Shown: in pieces, positions 1 to 37,796 of the stretch | Position numbering within the stretch: position 1 is the first letter of the stretch | Layout of the letters: every line of letters begins with the position of its first letter | Virus record (IMG/VR): IMGVR_UViG_3300045929_000054 | Coordinates: 1-41,057 of that record | Reading direction: 5' to 3' (one strand) | DNA from: a virus | DNA length: 41,057 nt | Made by a program: the position numbers and the translations under genes | The notes under the pieces: model-generated | Database searches by the model: none | Told to the model about the DNA's origin: nothing | The model's input: the letters and a program-made list of their open reading frames with translations, nothing else

Positions 1-10
1 CCCCTGGGCG

Positions 11-30
11 CCCCCCCCCCCCCCCCCCCC
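11..30. repeat. C20 homopolymer at contig edge
   Basis: Twenty consecutive C follow the first ten bases. It lies upstream of the first gene and at the contig edge, inside what looks like an operon interrupted by linearisation of the sequence. A run this long is unusual even in a GC-rich phage; it is most simply read as an assembly or library tailing artefact, though a true physical end cannot be excluded from sequence alone. Confidence 0.8.
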
Positions 31-73
31 GTTCTCTCGATCACGCCGCCTGGTCTGGGGCCTCTACCCCTTC

Positions 74-349
74 ATGGGGTTCTCGGAGGTCGAAGTGAGC
101 TCCGCGCCGGCAACGTTCCGCGAGCGCCTCGCGGCGCTCCGCGCGGAGTGCGGCGCGACCCAGCAGGACCTCGCCGACTTCCTCGAGGTGCCGCTCGAGC
201 TCGTCCGCGAATGGGAGAGCGGCGTCTTCCCCAAGCACGAGGACCTCGTGCGCATCGCCGAGGCCTTCGACACCACCGTGGACTACCTGATCCTCGCAAC
301 CAAGCAGCGGATGCCGCCGCCGGCGGCGCCTGACCGAGAGGCCATCTGA
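74..349 (+). CDS. XRE/Cro-CI family helix-turn-helix regulator
   Basis: A 91-residue protein that is almost entirely one HTH_XRE domain (about residues 14-70). The pattern FRERLAALRAECGATQQDLA, then LELVREWESG, then HEDLVRIAEAF matches the five-helix Cro/CI fold, with the recognition helix around residues 38-50. It lacks the C-terminal dimerisation or peptidase domain of a lambda-type CI repressor, so it is a small DNA binder, either repressor or Cro-like. Its stop overlaps the ATG of the ParB-domain gene (bases 347-351), indicating co-translation. If the contig is circular or permuted, it continues the early operon that ends at 41052. Which promoter it controls is not visible; the CCGGATGTTCCGG dyads at 1956 and 4484 are candidate operators by inference only. 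Confidence 0.85.
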   Translation: MGFSEVEVSSAPATFRERLAALRAECGATQQDLADFLEVPLELVREWESGVFPKHEDLVRIAEAFDTTVDYLILATKQRMPPPAAPDREAI

Positions 350-1869
350 TGACCGCAGCACTCGCAATCCCCGTGCAGACGTCTGCACTCCCGCTCGACG
401 CGATCACCCCGAGCAGGACGAACCCGCGGAAGCACTTCGACCAGGCGGCGCTCGCGGAGCTCGCTGAGAGCATCGCAAAGCACGGCGTGCTCCAGCCGAT
501 CCTCGTGCGGCCGTCCGACGCGCCCGGGCTCTACGAGCTCGTCGCCGGCGAGCGCCGGTTCCGCGCCGCGGCGATGGCGAAGCTCACCGAGATCCCGGCG
601 ACCGTACGCGAGCTCAGCGACGCCGAGGTCCTCGAGATCCAGGTCGTCGAGAACCTGATGCGACAGGACCTCCACCCGATGGAGGAGGCGCAGGGCTACG
701 AGGCGCTTCACTCCCGGCACAAGTACTCCGTCGAGCAGCTCGCCGCGAAGATCGGGAAGTCGGTCGCGTACGTGTACGCGCGTCTCAAGCTCTGCGCGCT
801 CACGAAGGAGGCGCGGCAGGCGTTCCTCGAGGACCGGTTCACCGCCGGGCACGCGATCCTCCTCGCGCGCCTCAAGCCCGCGGACCAGAAGCGGGCGATG
901 GATCCGGACCAGTTCGCGATCTTCGACCATGAGCGCGGTCTACTCGATCACGCAGACGACGGCGACGAGGACGACGCCCGACTCAAGCCCCGGAGCGTCC
1001 GTGAGTTCCAGGCCTGGATCGACAAGCACGTCCGGTTCGACGTTGAGAAGGACGCCGACCCGATGCTCTTCCCGGAGACCGCCGCGACGCTCGAGAAGGC
1101 GGAGGAAGCCGAAGAGCGCGTGATTCCCATCACGCACGATCACATGCTCGCCCCGTCGACGCGGGATTCGAAGGTGCGCACGTACACGTGCCGGTCCTGG
1201 AAGCGCGCCGATGGCGCGGTCGTCGAGGACAGCTGGACCGGCAAGAAGGGGCGGTCGAAGACCTGCGAGCACTCCATCACCGGGATCGTCGTCGCCGGCC
1301 GCGATCGCGGCGACGCCTTCAAGGTCTGCATCGCTCGCGACAAGTGCGCCGCGCACTGGCCGGAGGGTGTGAAGGCGAAGCAGGCGCGCCAGAAAGCCGA
1401 GGCCTCCGGGGAGAAGACGCCTCGCGCGAAGGAGCTCGAGCGCCAGAAGCGCGACCACGAGCGATACGAGGCCGAGCGGAAACGCGAGGAGGCCGAGCGC
1501 GAACGCTTCGAGAAGGCGACGCCGGCGATCCTCGAGGCCGTCTCCGCATGGGCGAGAGAGGCTGAAGCCGACACCGACTCGTGCCTCGTCGCGAAGATCG
1601 TGACCGATCAGCTCACGCCGTACGGACCACGCGGAAAGAAGGCCCTGCAGGCTTTCGGCAAGGTCCATTCAGCACAAGACATCCTGCGCCGGGCCGCGTT
1701 CCTTCACGTCGCAGCGCAGGTCCTCGACTCCTGGCGCGCGTCGCGCGACTTCGCGAAGTGGGCGAAGGGCGCGATCGGCCTCGACGTCGCCGCGATCCTC
1801 GAGAAAGTCGCGCCGGCTCCGAAGGAAGCTCCCGCGAAGCCGAAGACCGGCAAACGGGCGAGCTCGTGA
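349..1869 (+). CDS. ParB/Spo0J-like N-terminal domain protein, 506 aa
   Basis: The N-terminus is a clear ParB/Sulfiredoxin-like domain: an SRTNPRKHF motif (22-30), then GERRFRAA at 68-75 (the CTP/phosphate-binding arginine patch of ParB proteins) and ENLMRQDLHPMEEAQGY at 101-117, followed by a helix-turn-helix (about 125-165). The rest is unusual for a partition ParB: an acidic stretch, a cysteine-containing segment (YTC, KTCEHS, KVCIARDKC, about 279-345) that could bind metal, then a highly charged helical region (345-385) and an alanine/lysine-rich tail. No ParA and no obvious parS array lie nearby, and the phage has an integrase, so a role as a transcriptional or replication regulator or as a ParB-type nuclease is more likely than plasmid partition. 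ParB-domain proteins are frequent in phages of soil bacteria. Start and family confident; role uncertain. Confidence 0.85.
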   Translation: MTAALAIPVQTSALPLDAITPSRTNPRKHFDQAALAELAESIAKHGVLQPILVRPSDAPGLYELVAGERRFRAAAMAKLTEIPATVRELSDAEVLEIQVVENLMRQDLHPMEEAQGYEALHSRHKYSVEQLAAKIGKSVAYVYARLKLCALTKEARQAFLEDRFTAGHAILLARLKPADQKRAMDPDQFAIFDHERGLLDHADDGDEDDARLKPRSVREFQAWIDKHVRFDVEKDADPMLFPETAATLEKAEEAEERVIPITHDHMLAPSTRDSKVRTYTCRSWKRADGAVVEDSWTGKKGRSKTCEHSITGIVVAGRDRGDAFKVCIARDKCAAHWPEGVKAKQARQKAEASGEKTPRAKELERQKRDHERYEAERKREEAERERFEKATPAILEAVSAWAREAEADTDSCLVAKIVTDQLTPYGPRGKKALQAFGKVHSAQDILRRAAFLHVAAQVLDSWRASRDFAKWAKGAIGLDVAAILEKVAPAPKEAPAKPKTGKRASS

Positions 1870-2048
1870 AACACCCCCGTCGTGCGCCAATGCCCCTCCT
1901 CGCATTGACCCGAGGAGAGCATCCCCCCCAGGCGGCGACGGGTGCATTCAACGGTCCGGATGTTCCGGGCCGCAGCGCGGCAGCCCTCTTCTCGTTGTCG
2001 TGGGCTGCCGCGCGTTCCTTTCCCGGAACCTGAAGAGGAGTTCCCCAG
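1870..2048 (+). promoter_or_regulatory. Structured leader A (hairpins, CCGGATGTTCCGG dyad) before the 2049 gene
   Basis: This 179-base gap contains three inverted repeats in a row: CTCCTCG/CGAGGAG (1896-1902 with 1911-1917), the dyad CCGGATGTTCCGG (1956-1968, extending to a CGGTCCGGA/TCCGGGCCG stem with a TGT loop), and a perfect 12-bp stem GCGCGGCAGCCC/GGGCTGCCGCGC (1975-1986 with 2002-2013). A pyrimidine tail TTCCTTTCC (2015-2023) follows. CCTCTTC at 1985-1991, partly in the loop, is complementary to GAAGAGG at 2032-2038, which includes the Shine-Dalgarno region of the next gene. A 47-codon open frame (ATG 1890 to TGA 2033) runs through the element. It could be a terminator for parB, an operator, or an SD-masking leader. 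Confidence 0.55.
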
Positions 2049-2378
2049 ATGGCTGAGAGCGACACCATGCGAGGCGAAGAGGTCCAGATCGGGAAGCTGA
2101 AGTTCATCATGCCCTCCGAGCCTCCCATGGAGGACGAGCAGGTCATCGCCAACGAGATCCTGATCGCGCAGATCGACAAGCACGCCGCGCCCTTCCGGCA
2201 GATCCACGAGCGCGCCGAGCTCGCGAAGAAGACGCTCCGCGCCGATATCACCGCGGCCTTCCGGATGCGTCTCGAGGAGAAGGACAAGGGTCCGACCTTG
2301 ATGGACTCGCCAGGCGTCGAGGTCGACGACAGCGGGAAGAAGGGCGGCCGGCGGCCGCGAGCTGCGGCGGGGTCATGA
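2049..2378 (+). CDS. Hypothetical early protein, 109 aa
   Basis: Not recognised. The protein is charged and mostly helical (roughly residues 28-82, rich in E, K, R and A), ending in a basic KKGGRRPRAAAG tail that could contact nucleic acid. The start is set by GAAGAGGAG nine bases upstream of ATG, after leader A. The stop overlaps the ATG of the 2375 gene (ATGA), making it the first gene of a tightly coupled block 2049-3060. No cysteine motifs or membrane segment. Codon use matches neighbouring phage genes (strong G/C third positions), so it is coding; the function is unknown. Confidence 0.7.
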   Translation: MAESDTMRGEEVQIGKLKFIMPSEPPMEDEQVIANEILIAQIDKHAAPFRQIHERAELAKKTLRADITAAFRMRLEEKDKGPTLMDSPGVEVDDSGKKGGRRPRAAAGS

Positions 2379-2572
2379 GTTCGGCGGAACCGACCGGTCC
2401 CTACGTCTTCCAGCCGTACGGGACCGTCACTCATCCGGACCACGCGGCGTGGGGGCGGCTCTACGGCGTCGGCGGCGTCGGGCCGCTGATGGCGCCAGCC
2501 ATGATCCGAGGGCTGACGCGTGAGGAGGCGGAGGCTGTTCGAGAGGTGCTCGCACGGCTCGGCCCGCGATGA
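2375..2572 (+). CDS. Hypothetical small protein, 65 aa
   Basis: Not recognised. The start ATG overlaps the preceding stop (ATGA) and its own stop overlaps the next ATG in the same way, so translation of 2049-3060 is probably coupled. The sequence has an aromatic, proline- and glycine-rich first half (YVFQPYGTV) and a short helical end (TREEAEAVREVLARLG). No known domain can be assigned. It is supported mainly by overlap geometry and codon bias. Confidence 0.6.
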   Translation: MSSAEPTGPYVFQPYGTVTHPDHAAWGRLYGVGGVGPLMAPAMIRGLTREEAEAVREVLARLGPR

Positions 2573-3060
2573 CCTTCGCGGAGAAGACCTCCGTCCCCGT
2601 CGAGCGCTCGCGCGCAGAGATCGAGGGCCTGCTCGTGAAGTACGGAGCCTCTTGCTTCGCGAGCGGCTGGAAGCCTGGCGCCGCCGTGATCCAGTTCACG
2701 ATCAAGCGACCCGGGGGCGATCGCCTCGTCCGGTTCGAGCTCCCGCTGCCGAGCGGGACGGACAAGGCAGTCACCCACTTCAAGAACCGCTACGGGAGCT
2801 GGACCGCACGCCCGGCCTCCTCAGCGGCCGATGCCCTCGCTCAAGAGACGCGCCGGCGCTGGCGCGCGCTCGCGCTCGTCATCAAGGCAAAGCTCGAGGC
2901 CGTCGAGACCGGCATCGTTCTCTTCGACGACGAGTTCCTGGCGCACTTCGTCATGCCCAACGGGCAGACGCTCGGCAAGCACTTGGCGCCGCAGCTGGAA
3001 GCGGCCTACCGGTCCGGCGAAATGCCGGTGCTCGCGCTGCCGGCGGGAGGTGGGGAATGA
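2569..3060 (+). CDS. Conserved-looking phage hypothetical, 163 aa
   Basis: A soluble 163-residue alpha/beta protein. The N-terminal half looks like an antiparallel beta domain (AEIEGLLVKYGA, AVIQFTIKRPGGDRLVRFELPLP); the middle (about 83-115) is helical, rich in Arg and Ala (RRRWRALALVIKAKLEAVE); the end contains FDDEFLAHFVMPNGQTLG. This organisation resembles an uncharacterised protein family common in phage early regions, but I cannot name it. The start overlaps the preceding stop (ATGA). The next gene lies on the opposite strand and converges with it (15-base gap). Confidence 0.75.
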   Translation: MTFAEKTSVPVERSRAEIEGLLVKYGASCFASGWKPGAAVIQFTIKRPGGDRLVRFELPLPSGTDKAVTHFKNRYGSWTARPASSAADALAQETRRRWRALALVIKAKLEAVETGIVLFDDEFLAHFVMPNGQTLGKHLAPQLEAAYRSGEMPVLALPAGGGE

Positions 3061-3074
3061 GCGGTCGCTCCTAC

Positions 3075-3443
3075 TCAGCCGGATCCCTCGCCACGGGCTG
3101 GCTGGAAATTCTTGTCGCAGTTCGGGCACGCCCGGATGTGGAAAGACCCCGGCGGCTGGAGGTGCACGATGACGCCATCAGCGTCCTTGCATCGTGGGCA
3201 GATCGCGAAGCGCTTCCCGGCGGTGGTCTCCCAGTAGATGGATCCGTCGAATTCGAGAGCCGCGGCTCGTGCCGCATTGGCGAGCTGCTCTTTCAGTTCG
3301 CGGTTCTCCGCCGCGAGTTGCTGCGTTCGATCCTGCAGCTCCAGATAGGACTCGCGGAGCGTGTTGAGTGCCGTGCGATGTTCCTGCGCGGCGCTCTCGT
3401 CGTAGAGCTTCTTGAACGCGCCCGCCCAGTCGAAAATGCCCAT
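3075..3443 (-). CDS. Coiled-coil plus zinc-ribbon protein (reverse-strand moron)
   Basis: A 122-residue reverse-strand gene within a rightward operon. Residues about 15-62 are a predicted coiled coil (LRESYLELQDRTQQLAAENRELKEQL), followed by a short beta segment and a four-cysteine zinc ribbon: CPRC near residue 81 and CPNC near residue 110. A GGAGGAC Shine-Dalgarno precedes its ATG (3443, reverse strand), supporting the start. Base composition is less GC-rich than the neighbours and it is self-contained with an inverted orientation, which fits an independently transcribed moron or lysogeny gene. Cysteine spacing suggests structural zinc; the function is unknown. Confidence that it is a gene is good. 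Confidence 0.75.
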   Translation of the reverse strand: MGIFDWAGAFKKLYDESAAQEHRTALNTLRESYLELQDRTQQLAAENRELKEQLANAARAAALEFDGSIYWETTAGKRFAICPRCKDADGVIVHLQPPGSFHIRACPNCDKNFQPARGEGSG

Positions 3444-3475
3444 AGGGGAGTCCTCCGAACGGCGAGGGTAGCAGC

Positions 3476-3886
3476 GTGACCGGCCTCCGCTGGCTCCTCT
3501 GGCCGCTCCGCGCGCTGCTCGGCCGCTGCCGCGGCTGCGGCTGCTCGCTCGAGGTCGAGTACCGCGAGAGCCGGTCAGCAGTCACGCGCGACGTTGTTGG
3601 CTGGGTCTGGTGCTTCGATTGCGCGGTCGAGTTCAAGCGCCCACTACCGATCCTCCCGGCGCCCGCCGAGCAGCTCGCCACGATGCCGACTGCCGACATC
3701 TGCTCCGCGCTCCGGGCGCGCTCGGAGGGCGTCTTCGTCGTGATGATCGGCGAGGCCAACGCCGCGGCGAACGGTGACGACGCCAGGTGCGTAATCCACG
3801 TCGCCACAGGCCGCGGCGTCCGGCAGCGCATGAAGGGCGCGATCGAAGGCGGCTTCAACGAGTTCCTCAGGAGGTTCCCGAAGTGA
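3476..3886 (+). CDS. Hypothetical protein with N-terminal zinc-ribbon-like cysteines, 136 aa
   Basis: Starts at GTG. After a hydrophobic stretch (LRWLLWPLRALLG) the protein has CRGCGC at about 18-23 and CFDC at about 47-50, a plausible zinc knuckle. The C-terminal part (about 70-136) is a compact alpha/beta region with VFVVMIGEANAA and a helical end. The stop overlaps the next start (GTGA). Together with the 3075 and 3883 genes it forms a small group of cysteine-pair proteins. No family assigned. Confidence 0.65.
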   Translation: MTGLRWLLWPLRALLGRCRGCGCSLEVEYRESRSAVTRDVVGWVWCFDCAVEFKRPLPILPAPAEQLATMPTADICSALRARSEGVFVVMIGEANAAANGDDARCVIHVATGRGVRQRMKGAIEGGFNEFLRRFPK

Positions 3887-4071
3887 GTCTCCACGCCGAG
3901 TACGTCTGTGATTGGTGCCGCCGCGCCATCCGAGTGCATCCCGTGGCGCCTGGCGCGCGGCAGTTCCTCCCGCCTCCAGAGTGGCTCGAGGTCGAGCTCG
4001 CCAAGGGCGGCACGCTCGACGCCTGCTCGGAGCCCTGCGCCGAGAAGATCGCGACGGGGGCGGAGGTCTGA
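3883..4071 (+). CDS. Small zinc-ribbon-like protein, 62 aa
   Basis: Starts at GTG 3883, overlapping the previous TGA; a longer in-frame reading to 3787 exists but lies inside the preceding gene. CDWC near residue 9 and a second pair CSEPC near residue 51 suggest one zinc site in a protein otherwise rich in Pro and charged residues. Its TGA overlaps the ATG of the XRE gene (TGATG). Function unknown; perhaps a small adaptor or transcription-modulating protein, as is common among phage early zinc-ribbon proteins. Confidence 0.65.
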   Translation: MSLHAEYVCDWCRRAIRVHPVAPGARQFLPPPEWLEVELAKGGTLDACSEPCAEKIATGAEV

Positions 4072-4319
4072 TGGGCCGATCCGTCCAGAACTCGCGACAC
4101 GTTCAGTGGCGGCAGCAACAATTCGGCGCCCGGCTCGGCGCGCTGCGTGACGCGGCAGGGCTTCAACAGAACGAACTCGCCGAGCGGTGCGGGTGCTCGG
4201 CTGCCTGTGTGAACGCGATCGAGGCCGGCCGTCAGGCTCCGTCGCTATTCCTCGCGGGCCGCTTCGCAGTGGCGCTCGGCGTCCTGCTTGACGACCTGGT
4301 CGAGGGTCTCACGTCGTGA
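4071..4319 (+). CDS. XRE-family helix-turn-helix protein, 82 aa
   Basis: Nearly the whole protein is an HTH_XRE domain: FGARLGALRDAAGLQQNELA, then GCSAACVNAIEAGRQAPS (recognition helix about 43-56), then FLAGRFAVALGVLLDDLVEG. The usual invariant Gln, Ala and Glu positions of the Cro/CI fold are present. The ATG overlaps the upstream stop (TGATG); a longer in-frame reading exists upstream but overlaps the previous gene entirely. It is the second XRE protein in the window (first at 74), so the pair may act as repressor and antirepressor/Cro. Leader B with an exact dyad lies just downstream (4484), a plausible target by inference. Confidence 0.85.
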   Translation: MGRSVQNSRHVQWRQQQFGARLGALRDAAGLQQNELAERCGCSAACVNAIEAGRQAPSLFLAGRFAVALGVLLDDLVEGLTS

Positions 4320-5044
4320 CGGTCGCGATCGACATCCCTGCGTTCCGCGTCGTCTTCGCGATCGCGCGGGGCATGAACCAGACAACCGAGGGGGCGGCGG
4401 CTGCCGGAACACCGGAGACCGTGCGCGAGCTTGGAGTGCCAGCGCGCGACGCCCAGGCCGTCGCCCCCTCACCATCAACCGGGCCGGATGTTCCGGCTCG
4501 GCGCGCGGCGGGTCGTGTCGGACGCTCGGAGCGGCGGGACCCCCACTCCGATCCAACGACAGTCCGCCGCGCCGTTCTTTCCACACGAGGAGGATCCGAT
4601 GGCACGAGACTACGACAAGGCGATTCGGGCGCTGAGGGCCGAGGCGCTTGCGTGGACAAAGATCATGACACACGCCAGCTATCACTGGCTACAGGCGGCA
4701 GGCATCCGCGCGGCAGCATACAGCTACGCCGCGGACTACCTCGCATCCATCACCGGCAAGCTCGAGCAGGCCGCCGGAAAGCGCCCGCGCCGGTCCCGCG
4801 CGTCACGCTCCGGCTCGGCGCGGGGTCGCCCGAAGTCCTGATCCCAGGCGAGGACGCGAAGGTCCTGGAATGCCCGTGGCAGGCCCACGACGTTGCCGAG
4901 CGCGTCGCAGAGCGGCTCGGAGCTCGGCTCTACATCGAAGGCATGCCCGAGCGCGGGCCGCCTCCTGATCGCGCCGTAGCGCGCGTGCGCCGCCACCGGA
5001 GCGGCGCGGGGCTCATGGAGGAGGACGGCGGCGACGAGGACTGA
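4316..5044 (+). CDS. Long open frame; only its ends look coding (start of 3' part unclear)
   Basis: The frame opens at GTG 4316 (overlapping the XRE stop) and stays open to 5044. Codon use looks coding for the first 50 or so codons (MTVAIDIPAFRVVFAIA...) and again from about 4765 to 5044 (VTLRLGAGSPEVLIPG, then HDVAERVAERLGARLYIEG), but not between, where leader B and the start of the 4599 gene occupy the DNA. The 3' segment has no ATG, GTG or TTG near its beginning; it reads naturally as a -1 continuation of the 4599 gene. So this entry may be a chimera: a short gene at 4316 plus a separate 3' gene or the second half of a frameshifted gene. Confidence 0.4.
   Translation: MTVAIDIPAFRVVFAIARGMNQTTEGAAAAGTPETVRELGVPARDAQAVAPSPSTGPDVPARRAAGRVGRSERRDPHSDPTTVRRAVLSTRGGSDGTRLRQGDSGAEGRGACVDKDHDTRQLSLATGGRHPRGSIQLRRGLPRIHHRQARAGRRKAPAPVPRVTLRLGAGSPEVLIPGEDAKVLECPWQAHDVAERVAERLGARLYIEGMPERGPPPDRAVARVRRHRSGAGLMEEDGGDED
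4475..4596 (+). promoter_or_regulatory. Structured leader B (same CCGGATGTTCCGG dyad as leader A)
   Basis: TCAAC (4475-4479) followed by the exact dyad CCGGATGTTCCGG (4484-4496), which extends to a 10-bp stem CCGGGCCGGA/TCCGGCTCGG with a TGT loop and one G-T wobble. A second stem, GCGCGGCGG/CCGCCGCGC (4503-4511 with 4564-4572), encloses about 50 bases. Then come the pyrimidine tract TTCTTTCC (4575-4582) and the Shine-Dalgarno CGAGGAGG (4587-4594) of the 4599 gene. Order and spacing mirror leader A at 1948-2040, while the stem sequences differ. Confidence 0.55.
4599..4841 (+). CDS. Hypothetical 80-aa protein, possibly 5' part of a frameshifted gene
   Basis: ATG 4599 follows a strong GAGGAGG site. 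Residues 1-58 are a plausible helical protein (YDKAIRALRAEALAWTKI, then AAYSYAADYLASITGKLEQA). The last 20 or so residues (arginine/serine-rich, ending GRPKS) look like an out-of-frame reading, because the -1 frame over the same bases gives a natural sequence continuing to 5044. Moving to frame -1 around 4760-4770 would give a protein of about 148 residues. No canonical XXXYYYZ slippery heptamer is present there, so a sequencing indel or a second gene with an unusual start are alternatives. Function unknown. Confidence 0.6.
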   Translation: MARDYDKAIRALRAEALAWTKIMTHASYHWLQAAGIRAAAYSYAADYLASITGKLEQAAGKRPRRSRASRSGSARGRPKS

Positions 5045-5059
5045 GAGGGCGGGGGAACG

Positions 5060-5686
5060 ATGCGAGCGGCATGGTGGTGGATCGATCGGTGGCGGAAGTC
5101 GACGGCTTACACCGACATGACGCCCGAGCAGAAGGGCGTCTACCGGGACCTCCTGGACGAGCTCTGGATCCGTGACGGGGTGATCCCGAAGGACGAGAAG
5201 ATCCTGCGCAAGATCGCGGGCGCCGACGCGGCCTGTTGGAAGCGCGTTCGGAAGGCCGTCCTGGCCCACTTCACGCTCACCAGGAAGGGCTACCGGAACG
5301 AAACACACGACAAGATTCAGCACGAGTCGGAGCTCGCCCGGAGGCGTCAGGAGCGGTACCGAGCGTCACGTGACGCATCACATAACGCGTCACGTGACGC
5401 ATCACGTAACGGCCGAAGTGACGGTGAAGGTGACGGTAACGTTATGCGTCCTCCGTCTCCGGCTCTCTCCCTCCCCCCACCAAAGGGGGAGGGAGGGGAG
5501 AGCAGACAGATTTCGAATACCGTCCGGGCCGCGCGCTTCGCGTCGGCTGGCCCTCACGGGCCGCCGCTCCGCGCGCCCGAGCAGGGGGAGCCCATCGGGA
5601 TCGGGGAGATGCTCAGGGCCTCCGGGTGGGCACCGCCTGACGCCGCCCCGATCGAGCCCGGACCGATTCCCGGAGCCCCCGCGTGA
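5060..5686 (+). CDS. DUF1376/YdaU-like replication protein, 208 aa
   Basis: Residues 5-60 match the DUF1376 (YdaU) pattern: WWWIDRWRKSTAYTDMTPEQ, then GVYRDLLDELWIRDGVIP, then DEKILRKIAGADAACWKRV. It is a winged-helix-like domain found in phage replication initiation regions. The middle (about residues 102-125) is a low-complexity ASRDASHNASRDASRNG stretch, which is the coding shadow of a 24-bp DNA repeat (5364-5411). The C-terminal half is proline- and glycine-rich and disordered. This resembles lambda O, where iterons of the origin lie inside the replication gene. The stop overlaps the 5683 GTG. RusA follows two genes later, a usual replication-module context. Domain call fairly sure; origin role inferred. 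Confidence 0.8.
   Translation: MRAAWWWIDRWRKSTAYTDMTPEQKGVYRDLLDELWIRDGVIPKDEKILRKIAGADAACWKRVRKAVLAHFTLTRKGYRNETHDKIQHESELARRRQERYRASRDASHNASRDASRNGRSDGEGDGNVMRPPSPALSLPPPKGEGGESRQISNTVRAARFASAGPHGPPLRAPEQGEPIGIGEMLRASGWAPPDAAPIEPGPIPGAPA
5364..5411 (+). repeat. Iteron-like tandem 24-bp repeat, candidate replication origin
   Basis: Two adjacent 24-bp units (5364-5387 and 5388-5411) differ at one base. Each begins with the perfect palindrome CGTCACGTGACG and ends CATAACG or CGTAACG. Degenerate GTGACGGT copies and an inverted CGTTATGCGTC follow to about 5450. They lie in the linker of the DUF1376 gene and encode a low-complexity peptide, so the DNA rather than the protein is probably under selection. 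Confidence 0.7.
5469..5493 (+). repeat. Polypyrimidine/polypurine hairpin beside the iterons
   Basis: CCCTCCCCC (5469-5477) and GGGGGAGGG (5485-5493) form a perfect 9-bp stem with a 7-base loop; the purine arm continues as AGGGGAGAG. It lies about 55 bases past the iterons, inside the disordered part of the same gene. It may be an origin structure, or a REP-like element captured by the phage. Confidence 0.55.
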
Positions 5687-5916
5687 CGCAGCCCTGGCGC
5701 CCATCCCAGACCGTCGAGCAGCCGCTCCTTCCGGAGGTCGCGGCGAAGCCCAGACCGACCTTCCAGGAGACCGGCTCGATGGCCTGGGGGCAGCTCACCG
5801 CGGCGCTCCGCGGGATCCGTGACGGGCGGGGCTTCCGCTGCTCGCCGCAGTGCGAGCGGTGCGCCGACCTCTGGCCGTGGTACGCGCCTCGGAGAGAGGC
5901 AGGAGAAGAGGGATGA
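5683..5916 (+). CDS. Hypothetical protein with CxxxCxxC motif, 77 aa
   Basis: Starts at GTG overlapping the DUF1376 stop (GTGA) and ends overlapping the RusA start (ATGA), so it is co-translated with both. A Pro-rich N-terminus precedes an amphipathic segment (MAWGQLTAALRGIRDG) and a cysteine cluster CSPQCERCADLW at about 55-66 that could bind zinc. By position it may be an accessory to the replication protein; no family is recognised. Confidence 0.65.
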   Translation: MTQPWRPSQTVEQPLLPEVAAKPRPTFQETGSMAWGQLTAALRGIRDGRGFRCSPQCERCADLWPWYAPRREAGEEG

Positions 5917-6395
5917 ACCTGATCACGTTCCGAGTCCCCGGCGAGCCCGTCGCGTGGGCCCGCACGACCCGCAACATTCACGGCTTCGCGACGACCCCGA
6001 TGCCCCAGCGCCAGTTCGGCGCCTCCGTGAAGCAGTTCGCCGCCGCCGCGCTGCCGCCCGACTGGCAGCTCCTCGAGGGGCCCGTGGAGCTTCGCGTGCG
6101 CTGCGTCTTCGCGCGTCCCGCGTCGAAGTGCCGGCGGAAGGACAATCCTCACCGACGCGCCTGGAGCGACTGCCGGAAGGACGCCGACAACTGCGCGAAG
6201 ATCGTGTCCGACAACCTCAACCTGATCGTCTGGCGGGACGACCGCTGCGTCGCGCGGCTGGTCGTCGAGAAGCTGATCGGCACCCAGGGTGAGCCGCCCT
6301 TCGTCGAGGTCACGATCACCGTCCTCGAGGACACCTCCGACGTCGTCGCGGAGCACGAGGCCTCGCTCTTCGTCTCCAAGGCGCAGTCATCCTGA
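5913..6395 (+). CDS. rusA: RusA-family Holliday junction resolvase, 160 aa
   Basis: RusA enzymes are Mg-dependent homodimeric nucleases that resolve Holliday junctions and debranch phage DNA. The expected elements are visible: an N-terminal strand FRVPGEPVAWARTT (7-19), then KDADNCAKIVSDNLN at 89-103 with acidic residues D90, D92 and D100, and WRDDRCVARLVVEKL (107-121), matching the RusA pattern of D.DN..K...D.L and W.DD..V. Length (160) is a little above the 120-140 typical. The start ATG overlaps the previous stop. The distal residues ED.. in the C-terminus look disordered. It sits directly after the replication genes, as in many temperate phages. Confidence 0.9.
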   Translation: MNLITFRVPGEPVAWARTTRNIHGFATTPMPQRQFGASVKQFAAAALPPDWQLLEGPVELRVRCVFARPASKCRRKDNPHRRAWSDCRKDADNCAKIVSDNLNLIVWRDDRCVARLVVEKLIGTQGEPPFVEVTITVLEDTSDVVAEHEASLFVSKAQSS

Positions 6396-6414
6396 CCGTA
6401 CAGATTTCCAAGCG

Positions 6415-6536
6415 GAGCGGCCGCGCAACGAGGTGGGCGTCACAGTCACACCTTCTCATGCGCGAACCATCCCGGGAGCGTGGCAACCGCTCTCGGCTCT
6501 CTCGGCCCGCCACTGCGCGGCCGCTCTTCCTTTCGG
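6415..6536 (+). promoter_or_regulatory. Leader with 13-bp perfect inverted repeat and pyrimidine tail
   Basis: The gap 6396-6581 holds GAGCGGCCGCGCA (6415-6427) and its exact complement TGCGCGGCCGCTC (6514-6526), enclosing 86 bases that themselves fold: CGGGAGCG/CGCTCTCG (one wobble, about 6474-6496) and GGTGGGC with GCCCGCCAC. The outer stem is followed by TTCCTTTCGG, as in leaders A and B. It could be a terminator for the rusA operon or an RNA leader of the 6582 gene. A TAGAAT hexamer just downstream (6538-6543) is a weak -10 candidate. Confidence 0.5.
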
Positions 6537-6581
6537 ATAGAATCTTGGCCACGCGCTTCGGGAAGGTGTCGGAGTGGACCG

Positions 6582-6863
6582 ATGCCAAGGCACGTCGGGC
6601 TCGCCCCCGAGCCCTCAGTCGAAGCGCCGCCCAACGCCGTGATCGTCCGCGCTGCCGAGTGTTCGGTCGGCTCGAAGCGTGGCCCGCGGCAGTACTTCCC
6701 GAACCTCTGGGCCGCGCACAAAGCCGCCGAGGACCTCGCGAGAGAGCGCGGCCGACCGCTCTTCATCATCGGCCTTCCCGAGCGGGAATCCCGGCCGGCG
6801 ACGCACTACGGATGGCGCTCGCGAAACCGGGACTTGCATTGGTTCCCCGACTCCGAAGAGTGA
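6582..6863 (+). CDS. Hypothetical protein, 93 aa
   Basis: Not recognised. The start is set at ATG 6582 with GGAG eight bases upstream; the open frame extends upstream to 6480 but that part overlaps the inverted-repeat leader. The chain has a beta-rich N-terminus (NAVIVRAAECSVGSKRG), a helix (AAHKAAEDLARERG) and ends HYGWRSRNRDLHWFPDSEE. A compact soluble alpha/beta protein is likely. First gene after the leader and upstream of the packaging genes. Confidence 0.65.
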   Translation: MPRHVGLAPEPSVEAPPNAVIVRAAECSVGSKRGPRQYFPNLWAAHKAAEDLARERGRPLFIIGLPERESRPATHYGWRSRNRDLHWFPDSEE

Positions 6864-6870
6864 CGCCGGA

Positions 6871-7224
6871 ATGGCGCTCTACACGAGCAGACCGACCGAG
6901 TTCACCGGCATCAAGGCGCACGACTTCTCCGCCGAGATCAACAACGTGATCCCTGCGCCTGCCGTGCAGGACGACATCGCGGTCCTCGACTACCTGAAGC
7001 TCAAGGTCACCGGCGCCGCGACGACGCCGGTCCTGAAGACCACGGGCAACGGAGTCGAGCTCATGAGCTGGCCGCTCGCGGACGGGGGCGAGATCGAGCT
7101 CCGGCCGAAGCGCGGCCTTCGCCTCCCTCCGAACGACGGGCTCAAGCTCATCGGCCACGCCGCCTCCGCAGTTGCGCACGGCATGATCGAGTTCCACTAC
7201 GAGCGGCCGGGGACGGCTGAGTAA
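6871..7224 (+). CDS. Hypothetical structural-type protein, 117 aa
   Basis: A Thr/Gly/Leu-rich beta protein without cysteines or membrane segments, beginning MALYTSRPTEFTGIKAHDF. The second half (GVELMSWPLADGGEIELRP, then KLIGHAASAVAHGMIEFHYE) resembles small phage virion beta proteins such as decoration or minor head proteins, but no family is recognised. Its last base is the first base of the next ATG (TAATG), so it is paired with the 7224 gene. The short spacing from the 6863 stop suggests one operon leading into the terminase genes. Confidence 0.65.
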   Translation: MALYTSRPTEFTGIKAHDFSAEINNVIPAPAVQDDIAVLDYLKLKVTGAATTPVLKTTGNGVELMSWPLADGGEIELRPKRGLRLPPNDGLKLIGHAASAVAHGMIEFHYERPGTAE

Positions 7225-7553
7225 TGGCGCTCTTCAACCGCGGCAACGGCTACGTCGGCATCGTCTCGCAGGACCACGCGAGCACGTACACGATCGCGGC
7301 GGCCGACACCCGGAAGAGGTACACGATCATCGCCTTCGGCTTCGCCAACACCGGCGCCGACTCCGACGTCCAGCTCAACATCGGTTCCGCCGGCTGCTTC
7401 CGCAAGCCCGCTAACGCGACGTTTGGTCCGTCGATGACCGAGGTGAAGGGCGTCCGGATCCCCGGCGCCTACGGCGAGGCGATCTCCGTCCCGGCTGGCG
7501 CCGCCGGCTCCATCAACGACGGGTACGTCCTTTTCGAGACCACCGAGCGGTAA
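7224..7553 (+). CDS. Hypothetical beta-rich virion-type protein, 109 aa
   Basis: Opens with MALFNRGNGYVGIVSQDHAS, so both members of the pair 6871/7224 begin MAL. The composition (alternating hydrophobic and Thr/Ser/Gly residues, RYTIIAFGFANTGADSDVQLNIG) suggests a jelly-roll or Ig-like beta sandwich, as in head decoration or fibre proteins. Evidence is compositional only. Located directly upstream of the small terminase. Confidence 0.65.
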   Translation: MALFNRGNGYVGIVSQDHASTYTIAAADTRKRYTIIAFGFANTGADSDVQLNIGSAGCFRKPANATFGPSMTEVKGVRIPGAYGEAISVPAGAAGSINDGYVLFETTER

Positions 7554-7558
7554 CCGCC

Positions 7559-8071
7559 ATGGCCGCCAAGCGGCCGAAGCATGCGCCCGCGAACTCGACA
7601 CGCTCGACAGTAGAAAAACGAGTCGAAGAGGACCGCGCGCGCTTCCTCGAGATCTTCCGCGCGCGACGCTCTGTCCTCCACACGTGCAGGGCGATGGGCA
7701 TTCACCGGTCGACGGTCTACCTCTGGCGGAAGGACGAGGGGTTCGCGGCCGCCATGGACGCGATCGACAAGGAGCTCGACGACGACCTCGAGGACTCCGC
7801 ACGACACCGCGCGACGTTCGGGCTTCACCGCGGGATCTACCACGATGGTGAGCTCGTCGGGCAGGAGCGGCACTTCGAGACCGCGCTCACGATCTTCATG
7901 CTGAAGGCGCGGAAGAAGGGCACCTATCAGTTCGGCCTCGACGCGATGGGGCCTGCGGACGCGGAGAAGGCGAAGGCGATCCGCGCGATGGTCTCGGGGA
8001 TCAGGACGTCGATCGAGGGACCGCCCGATGAAGCTCGGCCCGCGCTGGACCAAGCTCCGCCATCATCCTGA
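7559..8071 (+). CDS. terS: Terminase small subunit-like protein, 170 aa
   Basis: Small terminases recognise the packaging site and hand DNA to the large subunit. The N-terminal half contains a helix-turn-helix (about residues 26-65): FLEIFRARRSVLHTCRAMGI, then HRSTVYLWRKDEGFAAAM, similar to homeodomain-like terminase DNA-binding domains. A helical region (66-95) and a basic tail follow. Its 3' end overlaps the 5' end of the large subunit by 44 bases. Assignment rests on the HTH plus position immediately upstream of terL; sequence divergence of small terminases keeps confidence moderate. Confidence 0.8.
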   Translation: MAAKRPKHAPANSTRSTVEKRVEEDRARFLEIFRARRSVLHTCRAMGIHRSTVYLWRKDEGFAAAMDAIDKELDDDLEDSARHRATFGLHRGIYHDGELVGQERHFETALTIFMLKARKKGTYQFGLDAMGPADAEKAKAIRAMVSGIRTSIEGPPDEARPALDQAPPSS

Positions 8072-15622: not shown

Positions 15623-16384
15623 ATGCGCCGCAAAGCCAAGCTCTCCCCGGACGCCTGGAAGGCCCTCCCCGAAGCCCAGCGCGAGGACTACGTCCTCGTC
15701 AACGGCAGCTACCTCCTCGACGTCGAGGCCGTCGACGGCTTCACGCTCGAGGACACCGGTGCGCTGAAGCAGACGATCTCGGCGCTCCGGACCGAGAAGG
15801 ACGGCCTCGAGGGGCGCGTCGCCGCGTTCAAGGGCATGGACCCCGAAGCGGCGAAGGAAGCCCTCGCGAAGCGCGAGGAAATGAAGACCTGGACGCCTCC
15901 CGAGAAGATGTCCGAGCGCGAGAAGGCGCTGAAGGACAAGGCCGACGCCGACCTCTCCGGCGAGCGCGCGACGAGCGCGAAGTACCGCGGCCAGCTCGAG
16001 AAGCAGCTCCGGACGAACGAGGCGACGAAGGCCCTCGTCGCGGCGGGCTGCAAGAAAGTCCGCCTGCTGCTCCCCGAGGTCGAGCGGCAGATCCGGGTCG
16101 AAGAGAACAAGACAACGGGCGAGCTCGTCGCCCGCGTGGTCGATGCGAACGGCAACCCGGCCGTGACGAAGAAGGCCGGGATGGGCGACATGACGATCGC
16201 CGAGCTGATCGAGATCACGCGGGCGGATCCGGAGTTCGCCGACTGCTTCAGTGGCTCAGGCGCGAGCGGCACCGGGAAGGAGCCCGAGAGCGGCTTCAAG
16301 AAGCCGGACAAGTCCGTCGGCCAAGCCGAAGCTGGCAAAAATCTAGAGGCGATTGCGGCCGGGGAGGTCGGCGTCTCGGGGTAA
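15623..16384 (+). CDS. Head scaffolding-like protein, 253 aa
   Basis: Rich in Lys, Glu and Ala, mostly helical: residues about 50-165 form long charged helices (LKQTISALRTEKDGLEGRVA, then MKTWTPPEKMSEREKALKDKA), then a short ordered part and a disordered Gly/Lys-rich end. This composition, the length and the position directly upstream of the coat gene are typical of phage scaffolding proteins (GP20-like). The 72-base gap to the reverse-strand gene is a divergent promoter region. Identity rests on composition and synteny rather than motif. Confidence 0.75.
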   Translation: MRRKAKLSPDAWKALPEAQREDYVLVNGSYLLDVEAVDGFTLEDTGALKQTISALRTEKDGLEGRVAAFKGMDPEAAKEALAKREEMKTWTPPEKMSEREKALKDKADADLSGERATSAKYRGQLEKQLRTNEATKALVAAGCKKVRLLLPEVERQIRVEENKTTGELVARVVDANGNPAVTKKAGMGDMTIAELIEITRADPEFADCFSGSGASGTGKEPESGFKKPDKSVGQAEAGKNLEAIAAGEVGVSG

Positions 16385-16558
16385 CCGGCGCGCGGAGCGC
16401 GAGGGCGGGATGCCCTCCGGGCGGGATGCCCGGCGACGCGCGTGGGTTTGGGTGCGGAGGGGTTCTTTTCTTTCGGCAGCTCGTGACGAGGGATTCGCGC
16501 GAGCAGACGTGGGTGGCGGGATGCCCAAGCGTCGCCGGCAACCGGAGACGTTCCATCC
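16385..16558 (+). promoter_or_regulatory. Capsid-gene leader with triplicate GGCGGGATGCCC repeats
   Basis: This 174-base gap contains GGCGGGATGCCC three times (about 16404-16415, 16420-16431 and 16515-16526); each can form a small GGGC/GCCC-type hairpin. GCGCGC at about 16390 and CGCGCG near 16437 may close the first two. A pyrimidine tract TTCTTTTCTTTC (16463-16474) follows. The start of the coat gene is ATG 16559 with no strong SD in the last 15 bases, so translation may depend on this leader. No ORF here looks coding. Confidence 0.5.
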
Positions 16559-17707: not shown

Positions 17708-17721
17708 TCACCCAGGCCGTT

Positions 17722-17769
17722 CGGCGGGCCGGCTCCCGTAAGTCGGCCCGCCGCGGCCTCCCTTTCCCC
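17722..17769 (+). terminator. Hairpin plus pyrimidine tail after the capsid gene
   Basis: CGGCGGGCCG (17722-17731) and CGGCCCGCCG (17744-17753) form a perfect 10-bp stem, with GGCCG/CGGCC extending it after a short bulge, followed by CCTCCCTTTCCCC (17757-17769). It fits a transcript-attenuating terminator after a highly expressed gene. CCTCC (17757-17761) can also pair with the GGAGG (17779-17783) of the next gene, so SD masking is an alternative. Confidence 0.6.
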
Positions 17770-17789
17770 AACGCAGACGGAGGATCCCC

Positions 17790-32671: not shown

Positions 32672-32983
32672 ATGGCGACAATCACACTCGGGGAGTTGCA
32701 GGCGCAGGGCTACACCCTGGTCATGGGCGCAGGCGAGCGCGTGCAGATGTGGAGCGGGATCAAGGCCGGAACCACCGACTCGCAGGTGCTGATCTGGGAC
32801 TCCGTCACGCTGCGGAAGAAGTCGATCGAGGACATGGACCCGCACAAGCTGCTCATGATGATCGTCGGCGGGCTCGCCGCAGTGTTCGAGCTCGTCGACA
32901 AGCTGGTGAAGCCCACGGCGATCACCGCGGCCAACGCGAACGGCGTCAATCAGATCCTCGGCCAGGCGCTGAAAGACAACTGA
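32672..32983 (+). CDS. Small virion-type protein, 103 aa
   Basis: The last gene of the tail operon. GGAAGGGGAG lies upstream of ATG. MATITLGELQAQGYTLVMGA, then LRKKSIEDMDPHKLLMMIVGG and a hydrophobic helix (LLMMIVGGLAAVFELVDKLV, about 66-85) end in an Asn/Ala-rich tail. The C-terminal helix might be membrane-active, a weak alternative being a holin-like role. A strong hairpin at 32992-33022 directly follows. Confidence 0.65.
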   Translation: MATITLGELQAQGYTLVMGAGERVQMWSGIKAGTTDSQVLIWDSVTLRKKSIEDMDPHKLLMMIVGGLAAVFELVDKLVKPTAITAANANGVNQILGQALKDN

Positions 32984-32991
32984 GAAAGAAA

Positions 32992-33022
32992 CCGGGCCCG
33001 GAGTCAGCCACTCCGGGCCCGG
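32992..33022 (+). terminator. Strong inverted-repeat terminator after the tail operon
   Basis: CCGGGCCCGGAGT (32992-33004) and ACTCCGGGCCCGG (33010-33022) form a perfect 13-bp stem with loop CAGCC, 6 bases after a stop. GAAAGAAA precedes it; on the reverse strand this would be a TTTCTTTC tail, so it could act bidirectionally, although the forward tail (CCTGCC) lacks T. Position at the end of the 10-kb tail operon supports a terminator. Confidence 0.8.
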
Positions 33023-33100
33023 CCTGCCAAGGAACCAGTGAAGAGGGAGGAGGTGATGAGTCTCCCCGGGGTCACTCTGAAACCACCGGGAGGCAATTCA

Positions 33101-36115: not shown

Positions 36116-37357
36116 GTGCGAGGTTCCCGTCACTTGCAGTCCTATGCCCGCGCTTACGATCGTCACCACTTCGGGCCAAGCGAACCGGCAGGCGGTGCCG
36201 GGGATACGGGAGGGGCGGAGGCTCTTGCTCGCTTGGCCGCATCACTCTCTCTCGACCAGAGCGATCGCATTCGGCGCGCCATCGCTCTCCTCACTCGCGA
36301 GGTCGCCGAAGTCTCCGAGCCCGGCCCGTCCCTGGTGGACATCAAGGACGTCTACCTCGCTGACCTGAAAACGCGCGCGAGCTCCGAGCACTACCGGACG
36401 ACGAAGCGCCAGCTCGACAAGATCGTCGCGGCGGTGGGTCCGTCGATCCCGTCGCCGCTCGCGGTGCTCCGGTACAGGCAGCATCGGATCGCCGAAGGCC
36501 CCCAGAACATCCGGCACCGGAATCGCCACCGGCCGGCGCTCTCGAACCGCTCCGCGAACATGGACGTCAACGCGCTTCGGGCCTGCCTCAACTGGGCGGT
36601 CGAGGAGGCGCAGATCCTTGGGGCGAATCCCATCGCGGGCGTGAAGTCGCTGCCGCACACGGAGGCGCACCACAACCGGCGATCGCGTGCGCTCTCGGAC
36701 GATGAGGTCGATCGGCTCCTCGACGAGTCGCGGCGCCTCGACGAGTTCCGGGCGTGTCCGCAGACTCCGCTCTGGCGGCTCCTGATCGAGACGGGCATCC
36801 GGTGGGGCGACGCGATGGGGCTTCGGCCGTCGCACGTCCGCGCGGACTGCATCGTCCTCGAAGCGATCACCGCGAAGGGGAAGAGGTCGCGCGAGATCCC
36901 GATCCCGCCGGACCTCGCGCTCGAGCTCGGGACCGTGCTTCCGTTCCGGACCCCGAAGGGCAGGCTCTGGTCCCCGAAGAACGGGAGGAACGGCCGGCGG
37001 CTCTTCCTCGCTACCGTCGTGCGCGCGGGGATTCGGTGGAGCGTGAACGGGAAACAGGTGTTCGTTCACGCGCTCAGAAAGACTGCGGCGAGCCGGATGC
37101 TCAGGCGCGGGGTCCCGCTTCCGATCGTCTCCGCGATGCTCGGGCACAAGGACCCGTCGCTGACGGCTCGGCTCTACGTCGAGATCACGGGCGACCAGCT
37201 CCGCGACGCGATGCGCCCCGCGTGGATCGCTCCTTTGGCACCCGCGGCCTCGGAGGGGTCCACCGCTCCGCGTCACGCAGGAGGCAGATGCGAACACGGG
37301 CACCAACCTTGCGCCCCCGGAGGTCCCCACGATCGAACGCACGGAGGACGGTGCTAA
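36116..37357 (+). CDS. int: Tyrosine integrase
   Basis: 413 aa from GTG 36116 (start uncertain; TTG alternatives inside). An N-terminal SAM-like DNA-binding region (about 72-175, LVDIKDVYLADLKTRASS, then ANMDVNALRACLNWAVEEAQ) is followed by the catalytic domain: R229 (ETGIRWGDAMG), K255 (AKGKRS), H318 and R321 (HALRKTAASRML), H344 (LGHKDPSLT) and Y354 (RLYVEI). All tyrosine recombinase residues are present, so it should be active. The last 57 residues are low complexity and overlap an antisense xis-like gene. attP with a tRNA-Lys half lies 0.25 kb downstream. Confidence 0.93.
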   Translation: MRGSRHLQSYARAYDRHHFGPSEPAGGAGDTGGAEALARLAASLSLDQSDRIRRAIALLTREVAEVSEPGPSLVDIKDVYLADLKTRASSEHYRTTKRQLDKIVAAVGPSIPSPLAVLRYRQHRIAEGPQNIRHRNRHRPALSNRSANMDVNALRACLNWAVEEAQILGANPIAGVKSLPHTEAHHNRRSRALSDDEVDRLLDESRRLDEFRACPQTPLWRLLIETGIRWGDAMGLRPSHVRADCIVLEAITAKGKRSREIPIPPDLALELGTVLPFRTPKGRLWSPKNGRNGRRLFLATVVRAGIRWSVNGKQVFVHALRKTAASRMLRRGVPLPIVSAMLGHKDPSLTARLYVEITGDQLRDAMRPAWIAPLAPAASEGSTAPRHAGGRCEHGHQPCAPGGPHDRTHGGRC

Positions 37358-37605: not shown

Positions 37606-37607
37606 AG

Positions 37608-37654
37608 TGCCCGCGGCAGGACTCGAACCTGCGGCCCGGTGATTAAGAATCACC
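37608..37654 (-). other. attP core: 3' half of tRNA-Lys(CTT)
   Basis: On the reverse strand, from the anticodon stem to the discriminator base: anticodon stem GGTGA/TCACC with loop TTCTTAA (anticodon CTT), a 5-base variable loop, T arm GCAGG-TTCGAGT-CCTGC and acceptor 3' strand CGCGGGC with discriminator A. The sequence upstream (37655-37680) does not provide the acceptor complement GCCCGCG or a D arm, so the tRNA is truncated. This is the expected attP of a phage that rebuilds a host tRNA-Lys 3' end on integration. The anticodon arm is extended to a 10-bp palindrome CCCGGTGATT/AATCACCGGG (37635-37657). Confidence 0.85.
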
Positions 37655-37796
37655 GGGTCCGCGGCACGCGGTTTGCCCAGTCACCGGGTCACAGATTCTC
37701 TAAATCGGGCGCTGGTGCTTTGGCGATTACCTGTCTATGATGCTCGCGTGATCGCTGAGAAACCGGCGATCGACTCCGCCGCGTAGGACCACGCGG
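37655..37796 (+). promoter_or_regulatory. attP right arm and candidate early promoter region
   Basis: TCACCGGGTC occurs at 37650-37659 and again at 37681-37690, a direct repeat of attP-arm type. The most AT-rich stretch of the area follows (37691-37741). TATGAT (37736-37741) is a possible -10 for the rightward early genes, though no good -35 is at the right distance. GATCGC/GCGATC (about 37750-37771) forms a short operator-like dyad. All functions are inferred. Confidence 0.35.

Follow-up and report, generated by a model that had tools for sequence, protein, structure and literature searches.

Twin structured leaders ahead of two early genes in a temperate siphophage genome

The early region of this environmental phage carries two copies of a structured leader, each ending shortly before the start codon of a small gene. 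The shared sequence, shared pairing and placement of the two leaders are established by computation, and it is very likely that the twin leader is a real control element. The window analyzed spans all 41,057 bases of an IMG/VR virus record, a temperate siphophage by gene content. Both leaders lie inside the rightward early region, among RecE, RecT, XRE, ParB-like, DUF1376 and RusA genes, with leader 1 between the ParB-like gene and the gene at 2049, and leader 2 between the XRE gene that ends at 4319 and the gene at 4599.

The order in both copies is P1, an unpaired linker, P2, P3, a pyrimidine tail, a Shine-Dalgarno sequence and ATG (Table 1). P2 is the CCGGAUGUUCCGG hairpin, and its tip, CCGGATGTTCCGG, is part of this larger element; it occurs exactly at 1956-1968 and 4484-4496 on the + strand and nowhere else in the 41 kb record. 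A preliminary description of this DNA had started from the identical dyad at 1956 and 4484, preceded by TCAAC and followed by a GC stem, a TTCYTTTCC-type tail, a purine-rich Shine-Dalgarno sequence and ATG (2049 and 4599), all of which we find as it claimed. The shared layout it proposed is also present, but is larger than described, with P1 as a third stem upstream in both copies (z -4.0 and -4.3). P1 is a stable GC stem directly upstream of the linker and P2, and its sequence differs between the copies, while the unpaired linker CAU(U)CAA is common to both. Only 2 nt (copy 1) or 1 nt (copy 2) separate P2 from P3. P3 has a base common to the copies (GCGCGGC/GCCGCGC) and a top that varies in sequence and length, and the common tail GUUC(C)UUUCC stands ahead of the Shine-Dalgarno sequence, ending 16-26 nt before ATG in the two leaders.

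Table 1. Features of the twin leaders and of their setting in the record.
Feature	Position	Strand	Basis or remark
Copy 1 P1 (outer helix + inner hairpin)	1876..1942	+	fold -34.4 kcal/mol, z -4.03, 0/200 shuffles as good
Copy 1 linker TGCATTCAA	1943..1951	+	CAT(T)CAA shared with copy 2; unpaired in minimum-energy fold
Copy 1 P2 with CCGGATGTTCCGG	1952..1972	+	9 pairs; 13-base core identical to copy 2
Copy 1 P3, 12-bp GC stem	1975..2013	+	fold; two pairs changed on both sides vs copy 2
Copy 1 tail GTTCCTTTCC	2014..2023	+	shared with copy 2; terminator-like together with P3
Copy 1 Shine-Dalgarno AGAGGAG, ahead of ATG 2049	2034..2040	+	sequence
First gene after copy 1, 109 aa, no assigned function	2049..2378	+	G+C by codon position
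Copy 2 P1 (15-bp outer helix + two inner hairpins)	4388..4470	+	fold -55.7 kcal/mol, z -4.34, 0/200 shuffles as good
Copy 2 linker ACCATCAA	4471..4478	+	alignment, fold
Copy 2 P2 with CCGGATGTTCCGG	4479..4501	+	10 pairs; core identical to copy 1
Copy 2 P3, same base, longer top	4503..4572	+	fold; recovered by copy-1-only model
Copy 2 tail CGTTCTTTCC	4573..4582	+	alignment
Copy 2 Shine-Dalgarno GAGGAGG, ahead of ATG 4599	4587..4593	+	sequence
First gene after copy 2, 80 aa	4599..4841	+	G+C by codon position favours frame at 4590-4770
Possible P2-less cousin: GC hairpin + CCTCCCTTTCC tail ahead of Shine-Dalgarno	17714..17772	+	fold z -6.29
XRE regulator genes	74 and 4071		second ends 4319
ParB-like gene	349-1869		stop at 1869, copy 1 P1 directly after
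DUF1376/primosomal gene	5060		
RusA gene	5913		
Terminase genes	7559, 8028		portal, head and tail genes also present
Major head gene	16559		start
Integrase gene	36116-37354		
RecE-like gene	38765		
RecT-like gene	39863		

The 13-base identity alone is weak evidence, since repeated 13-mers are common in the record (362 identical pairs against 96-135 in five shuffles). That abundance in a GC-rich record, together with the lack of copies elsewhere, is what speaks for chance, or for simple copying of a functionless GC-rich spacer. We nevertheless regard this as very unlikely. To avoid circularity, we based a covariance model on copy 1 only; it recovers copy 2 in the record at 41.6 bits (E 4e-13, E-values being rough), and stems have changed on both sides with pairing kept. 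The next match of this model in the record reaches 13 bits, setting aside the reverse strand of copy 1 P3 (21.6 bits), and the next best in ~560 kb including phage relatives reaches 22 bits. When ~0.64 Mb was scanned with a descriptor that omits the core and asks for AAC, a pair of adjacent hairpins, a pyrimidine tail and a Shine-Dalgarno start, these two sites alone were found. The record holds 79 hairpin-type 13-mers (5-3-5), and CCGGATGTTCCGG is the only one occurring twice. The local alignment score of one leader against the other was equalled in 3/1000 shuffles, the fold of the copy 1 leader was better than those of 200/200 shuffles, and that of copy 2 beat 200/200 when the P2-P3 leader was folded and every shuffle except one when the full leader was.

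All of the modelled pairs of P2 and P3 (20/20) form in both copies, three with both sides changed and two with one side changed, in an alignment where the top of copy 2 P3 was trimmed. Sliding the 3′ partner of P2/P3 by 1-3 columns lowers the paired cells to 32-48%. One shuffle control on this alignment gave 61/500, a count made uninformative by there being two rows. The outer stem pairs, said in the preliminary description to differ between copies yet remain paired, are indeed paired, but not in the types it had given: one position has U-G against G-C, a change on both sides, and another has G-C against G-U, a change on one side. Conservation outside the 13 bases is clear and runs through the P3 base, linker and tail.

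Whether such a dyad reflects RNA structure or an operator had been left as a choice, and RNA is favoured because the linker, tail and P3 base are shared and P1 is paired in both copies while unrelated in sequence. Four G-T cells in P2/P3 form pairs in the sense RNA and would be mismatched in a DNA dyad or in RNA of the complementary strand; since they pair on the sense strand only, we modestly favour the element being a sense RNA. In the operator explanation, CCGGATGTTCCGG would be bound as DNA by an XRE or ParB-like protein, in a stoperator- or parS-like manner, and the RNA fold would be incidental. Phage repressor operators are often short dyads, and here a perfect 5-3-5 dyad occurs twice, next to the parB-like gene in one case and next to an XRE gene in the other. 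However, there are two sites only, conservation runs through the P3 base and tail for ~80-110 nt, the outer dyad mismatches are G-U in the sense RNA, and the unrelated P1 sequences are paired all the same, which makes an operator quite improbable in our view.

A consensus scan of positions 1-8000 showed no sigma-70-like promoter, using a consensus that may not be that of the host. Since none was seen and there is little promoter room between tail and ATG, the element should be transcribed from upstream. We propose that each leader would be a cis-acting sense RNA between cistrons that sets expression of the next gene block. Immediately ahead of the ribosome site, P3 with GUUC(C)UUUCC would form an intrinsic terminator or attenuator that leaks. 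Recognition by a phage factor, a host factor or RNA polymerase would fall to the invariant P2 with the CAU(U)CAA linker. Once engaged at P2/linker, the factor or polymerase would allow transcription to continue, in the way that nut/put elements act in front of terminators. Conditional read-through control via P2/linker and a weak P3 terminator is, in our tentative judgement, the likeliest mechanism; with it we infer that the leaders are transcribed, that termination would take place at P3 and that binding would take place at P2.

P3 and the tail form a strong GC stem followed by a mixed U/C tail rather than a pure U run, and with 5 T in 10 bases the tail makes a poor intrinsic terminator by E. 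coli standards, which may not apply to the host. A terminator consensus scan, itself weak evidence, flagged copy 1 P3 with its tail only and not copy 2, and no antiterminator gene was recognized in the phage. It is rather doubtful that the leaders represent a novel class of phage RNA, with three stems and the invariant CCGGAUGUUCCGG hairpin, that would switch early read-through, perhaps without a protein.

The same stems could instead act in RNA processing or stability, with P1/P3 cut by an RNase III-type enzyme or protective, leaving a stable 5′ hairpin before the Shine-Dalgarno sequence of each block. This would fit long GC stems that lie between cistrons just before the Shine-Dalgarno sequence, and that vary in sequence and are paired in both copies. 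With that said, the exact P2 tip, linker and tail suggest recognition and not double-strandedness alone, and copy 1 P3 has just 12 bp; we consider processing unlikely. Translation control would place the effect at initiation at 2049 and 4599, tuned by a protein or by the ribosome through a standby site or S1 on the pyrimidine tail. The order of tail and Shine-Dalgarno sequence is indeed constant, both lying within 16-26 nt of ATG, and folding of P2-P3 leaves the tail unpaired. P2, however, lies ~75-100 nt upstream of ATG and does not cover the Shine-Dalgarno sequence, and no switch structure common to both copies was seen; translation control is likewise an improbable explanation.

A related structure may be present at 17714..17772, right behind the major head gene and ahead of the following one, where the stem and CCTCCCTTTCC resemble P3 plus tail; the covariance matches there are weak (16.3 and 11.4 bits). 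A partial terminator is commonly found after the major head gene, and we count this resemblance for the terminator reading of P3. The leader of the major head gene itself (16384-16558) has GGGCGGGATGCCC twice, at ~16403 and ~16419, and GGCGGGATGCCC again near 16516. The two GGGCGGGATGCCC copies fold as hairpins with a GGGAU loop, a GGTTCTTTTCTTTC tract lies in between in this leader, and the repeated hairpins are possibly protein-binding.

Downstream of leader 1, the first gene is followed by the overlapping genes 2375-2572 and 2569-3060, the latter matching phrog_17260. The product of 4599..4841 has no family match, and the proteins directly after both leaders and that of 2569-3060 have no relatives in IMG/VR by the method used. 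A 242-aa ORF starting with GTG (4316-5044) runs in another frame over the XRE stop and all of leader 2, and overlaps the gene at 4599; codon-position G+C is ambiguous over its stretch 4316-4470.

Several other segments of the record can be described. The minus strand carries, at 37607-37673 beside the integrase gene, a segment resembling tRNA-Lys(CTT), which is probably attP. Its best match in sampled genomes was 93% over 40 bases, and its use as a query against three phyla pointed to no particular host. A run of ~20 C at the left end (positions 1-30) is probably an assembly artefact. Inside the DUF1376/primosomal gene, at 5363-5410, a 24-bp repeat of GCGTCACGTGACGCATCACATAAC type occurs three times at intervals of 12 bp; by analogy with lambda O, these repeats could be the iterons of an origin that lies in a replication gene. 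A perfect CCGGGCCCGGAGTCAGCCACTCCGGGCCCGG hairpin without a T run is found at 32992-33022, between the gene at 32672-32983 and the gene at 33038.

The preliminary description knew of no named RNA motif of this kind, and 4227 Rfam 15 families searched against the record at the gathering cut-off indeed gave no match; a search with relaxed limits gave chance-level matches only (best 18.6 bits). It had counted a lack of further copies in related phages against its own reading, and as far as we searched, other phages have none. TCAAC with CCGGATGTTCCGG has 11 exact matches in IMG/VR, and in none of them do the second stem and the tail match; a looser pattern with a TTCYTT tail has 34 matches in IMG/VR and 51 in GTDB genomes, none with a long P2 plus P3. 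Among the matches listed for GGATGTTCC with GTTCYTTYC in IMG/VR, both stems are found in the record's two copies only. None of three ParB-like protein relatives examined has such a leader after the gene, and a model search of 24 viral records, ParB-like and TerL relatives included, gave nothing convincing. Matches in L026 and L047 appeared to be chance on inspection, and a DNA match in Arthrobacter phage Brynnie lies antisense inside a gene. Model R1 gave 21-28 bits in ~350 bacterial genomes (best 27.9), which we judged to be chance. Since the pattern and model searches gave chance matches only, the element is known from one record. The absence of further copies is not strong evidence because the IMG/VR and GTDB pattern scans may not have included the record's near relatives, and with no homologous element in other phages there is no independent covariation. 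Other candidates considered and dropped were IS200/IS605-type ends (no transposase was recognized between the copies), alternative P2/P3 pairings (not common to both copies), CsrA sites (the GGA sits in a stem) and lambda boxA.

Repeated elements at start sites are also known from Cluster K mycobacteriophages, in which repeated 13-bp elements (SAS) and inverted repeats with variable spacers lie upstream of some start codons (PMC3203893). The SAS is GGGATAGGAGCCC, near the start codon, and the ESAS contains SigA-like promoter hexamers (PMC11373665). The leaders resemble SAS/ESAS in being repeated start-site elements, but GGGATAGGAGCCC was not found by eye before 2049 and 4599, nor did the sigma-70 consensus scan of 1-8000 find a SigA-like promoter as in ESAS. 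Rfam phage RNAs such as c4 antisense RNA are, like the leaders, small hairpin RNAs of temperate phages, and none matched. In lambda-type nut sites (boxA, boxB) a short recognition hairpin stands ahead of terminators in early operons. P2 differs from lambda nut in its loop of 3 nt and its exact upper stem, and neither a boxA before P2 nor an N-like gene was recognized. Nut and put share a logic in which polymerase gets past terminators by means of a recognition RNA (PMC9378689). HK022 putL and putR are cis-acting RNAs of two hairpins, present as two copies per phage in early transcripts, and put RNA works on RNA polymerase itself, suppressing pausing and termination with no further factor. The leaders too come in two copies, with P2 next to P3 in the early region, and would likewise be transcribed and act in cis. 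In contrast to put, which is ~70 nt and lies after pL and pR, P2 and P3 of copy 2 span ~95 nt, both leaders are on one strand in one early region, a further stem precedes P2, and only 16-26 nt separate the end of the element from ATG. The leaders may work like put or nut. To our knowledge, few systems are known in which leader RNAs let phages pass or use terminators, and most are from coliphages. With two copies in one record the element remains a candidate, and, being structured, duplicated and carried by a phage whose host is high-GC, it would offer a testable case beyond the coliphages.
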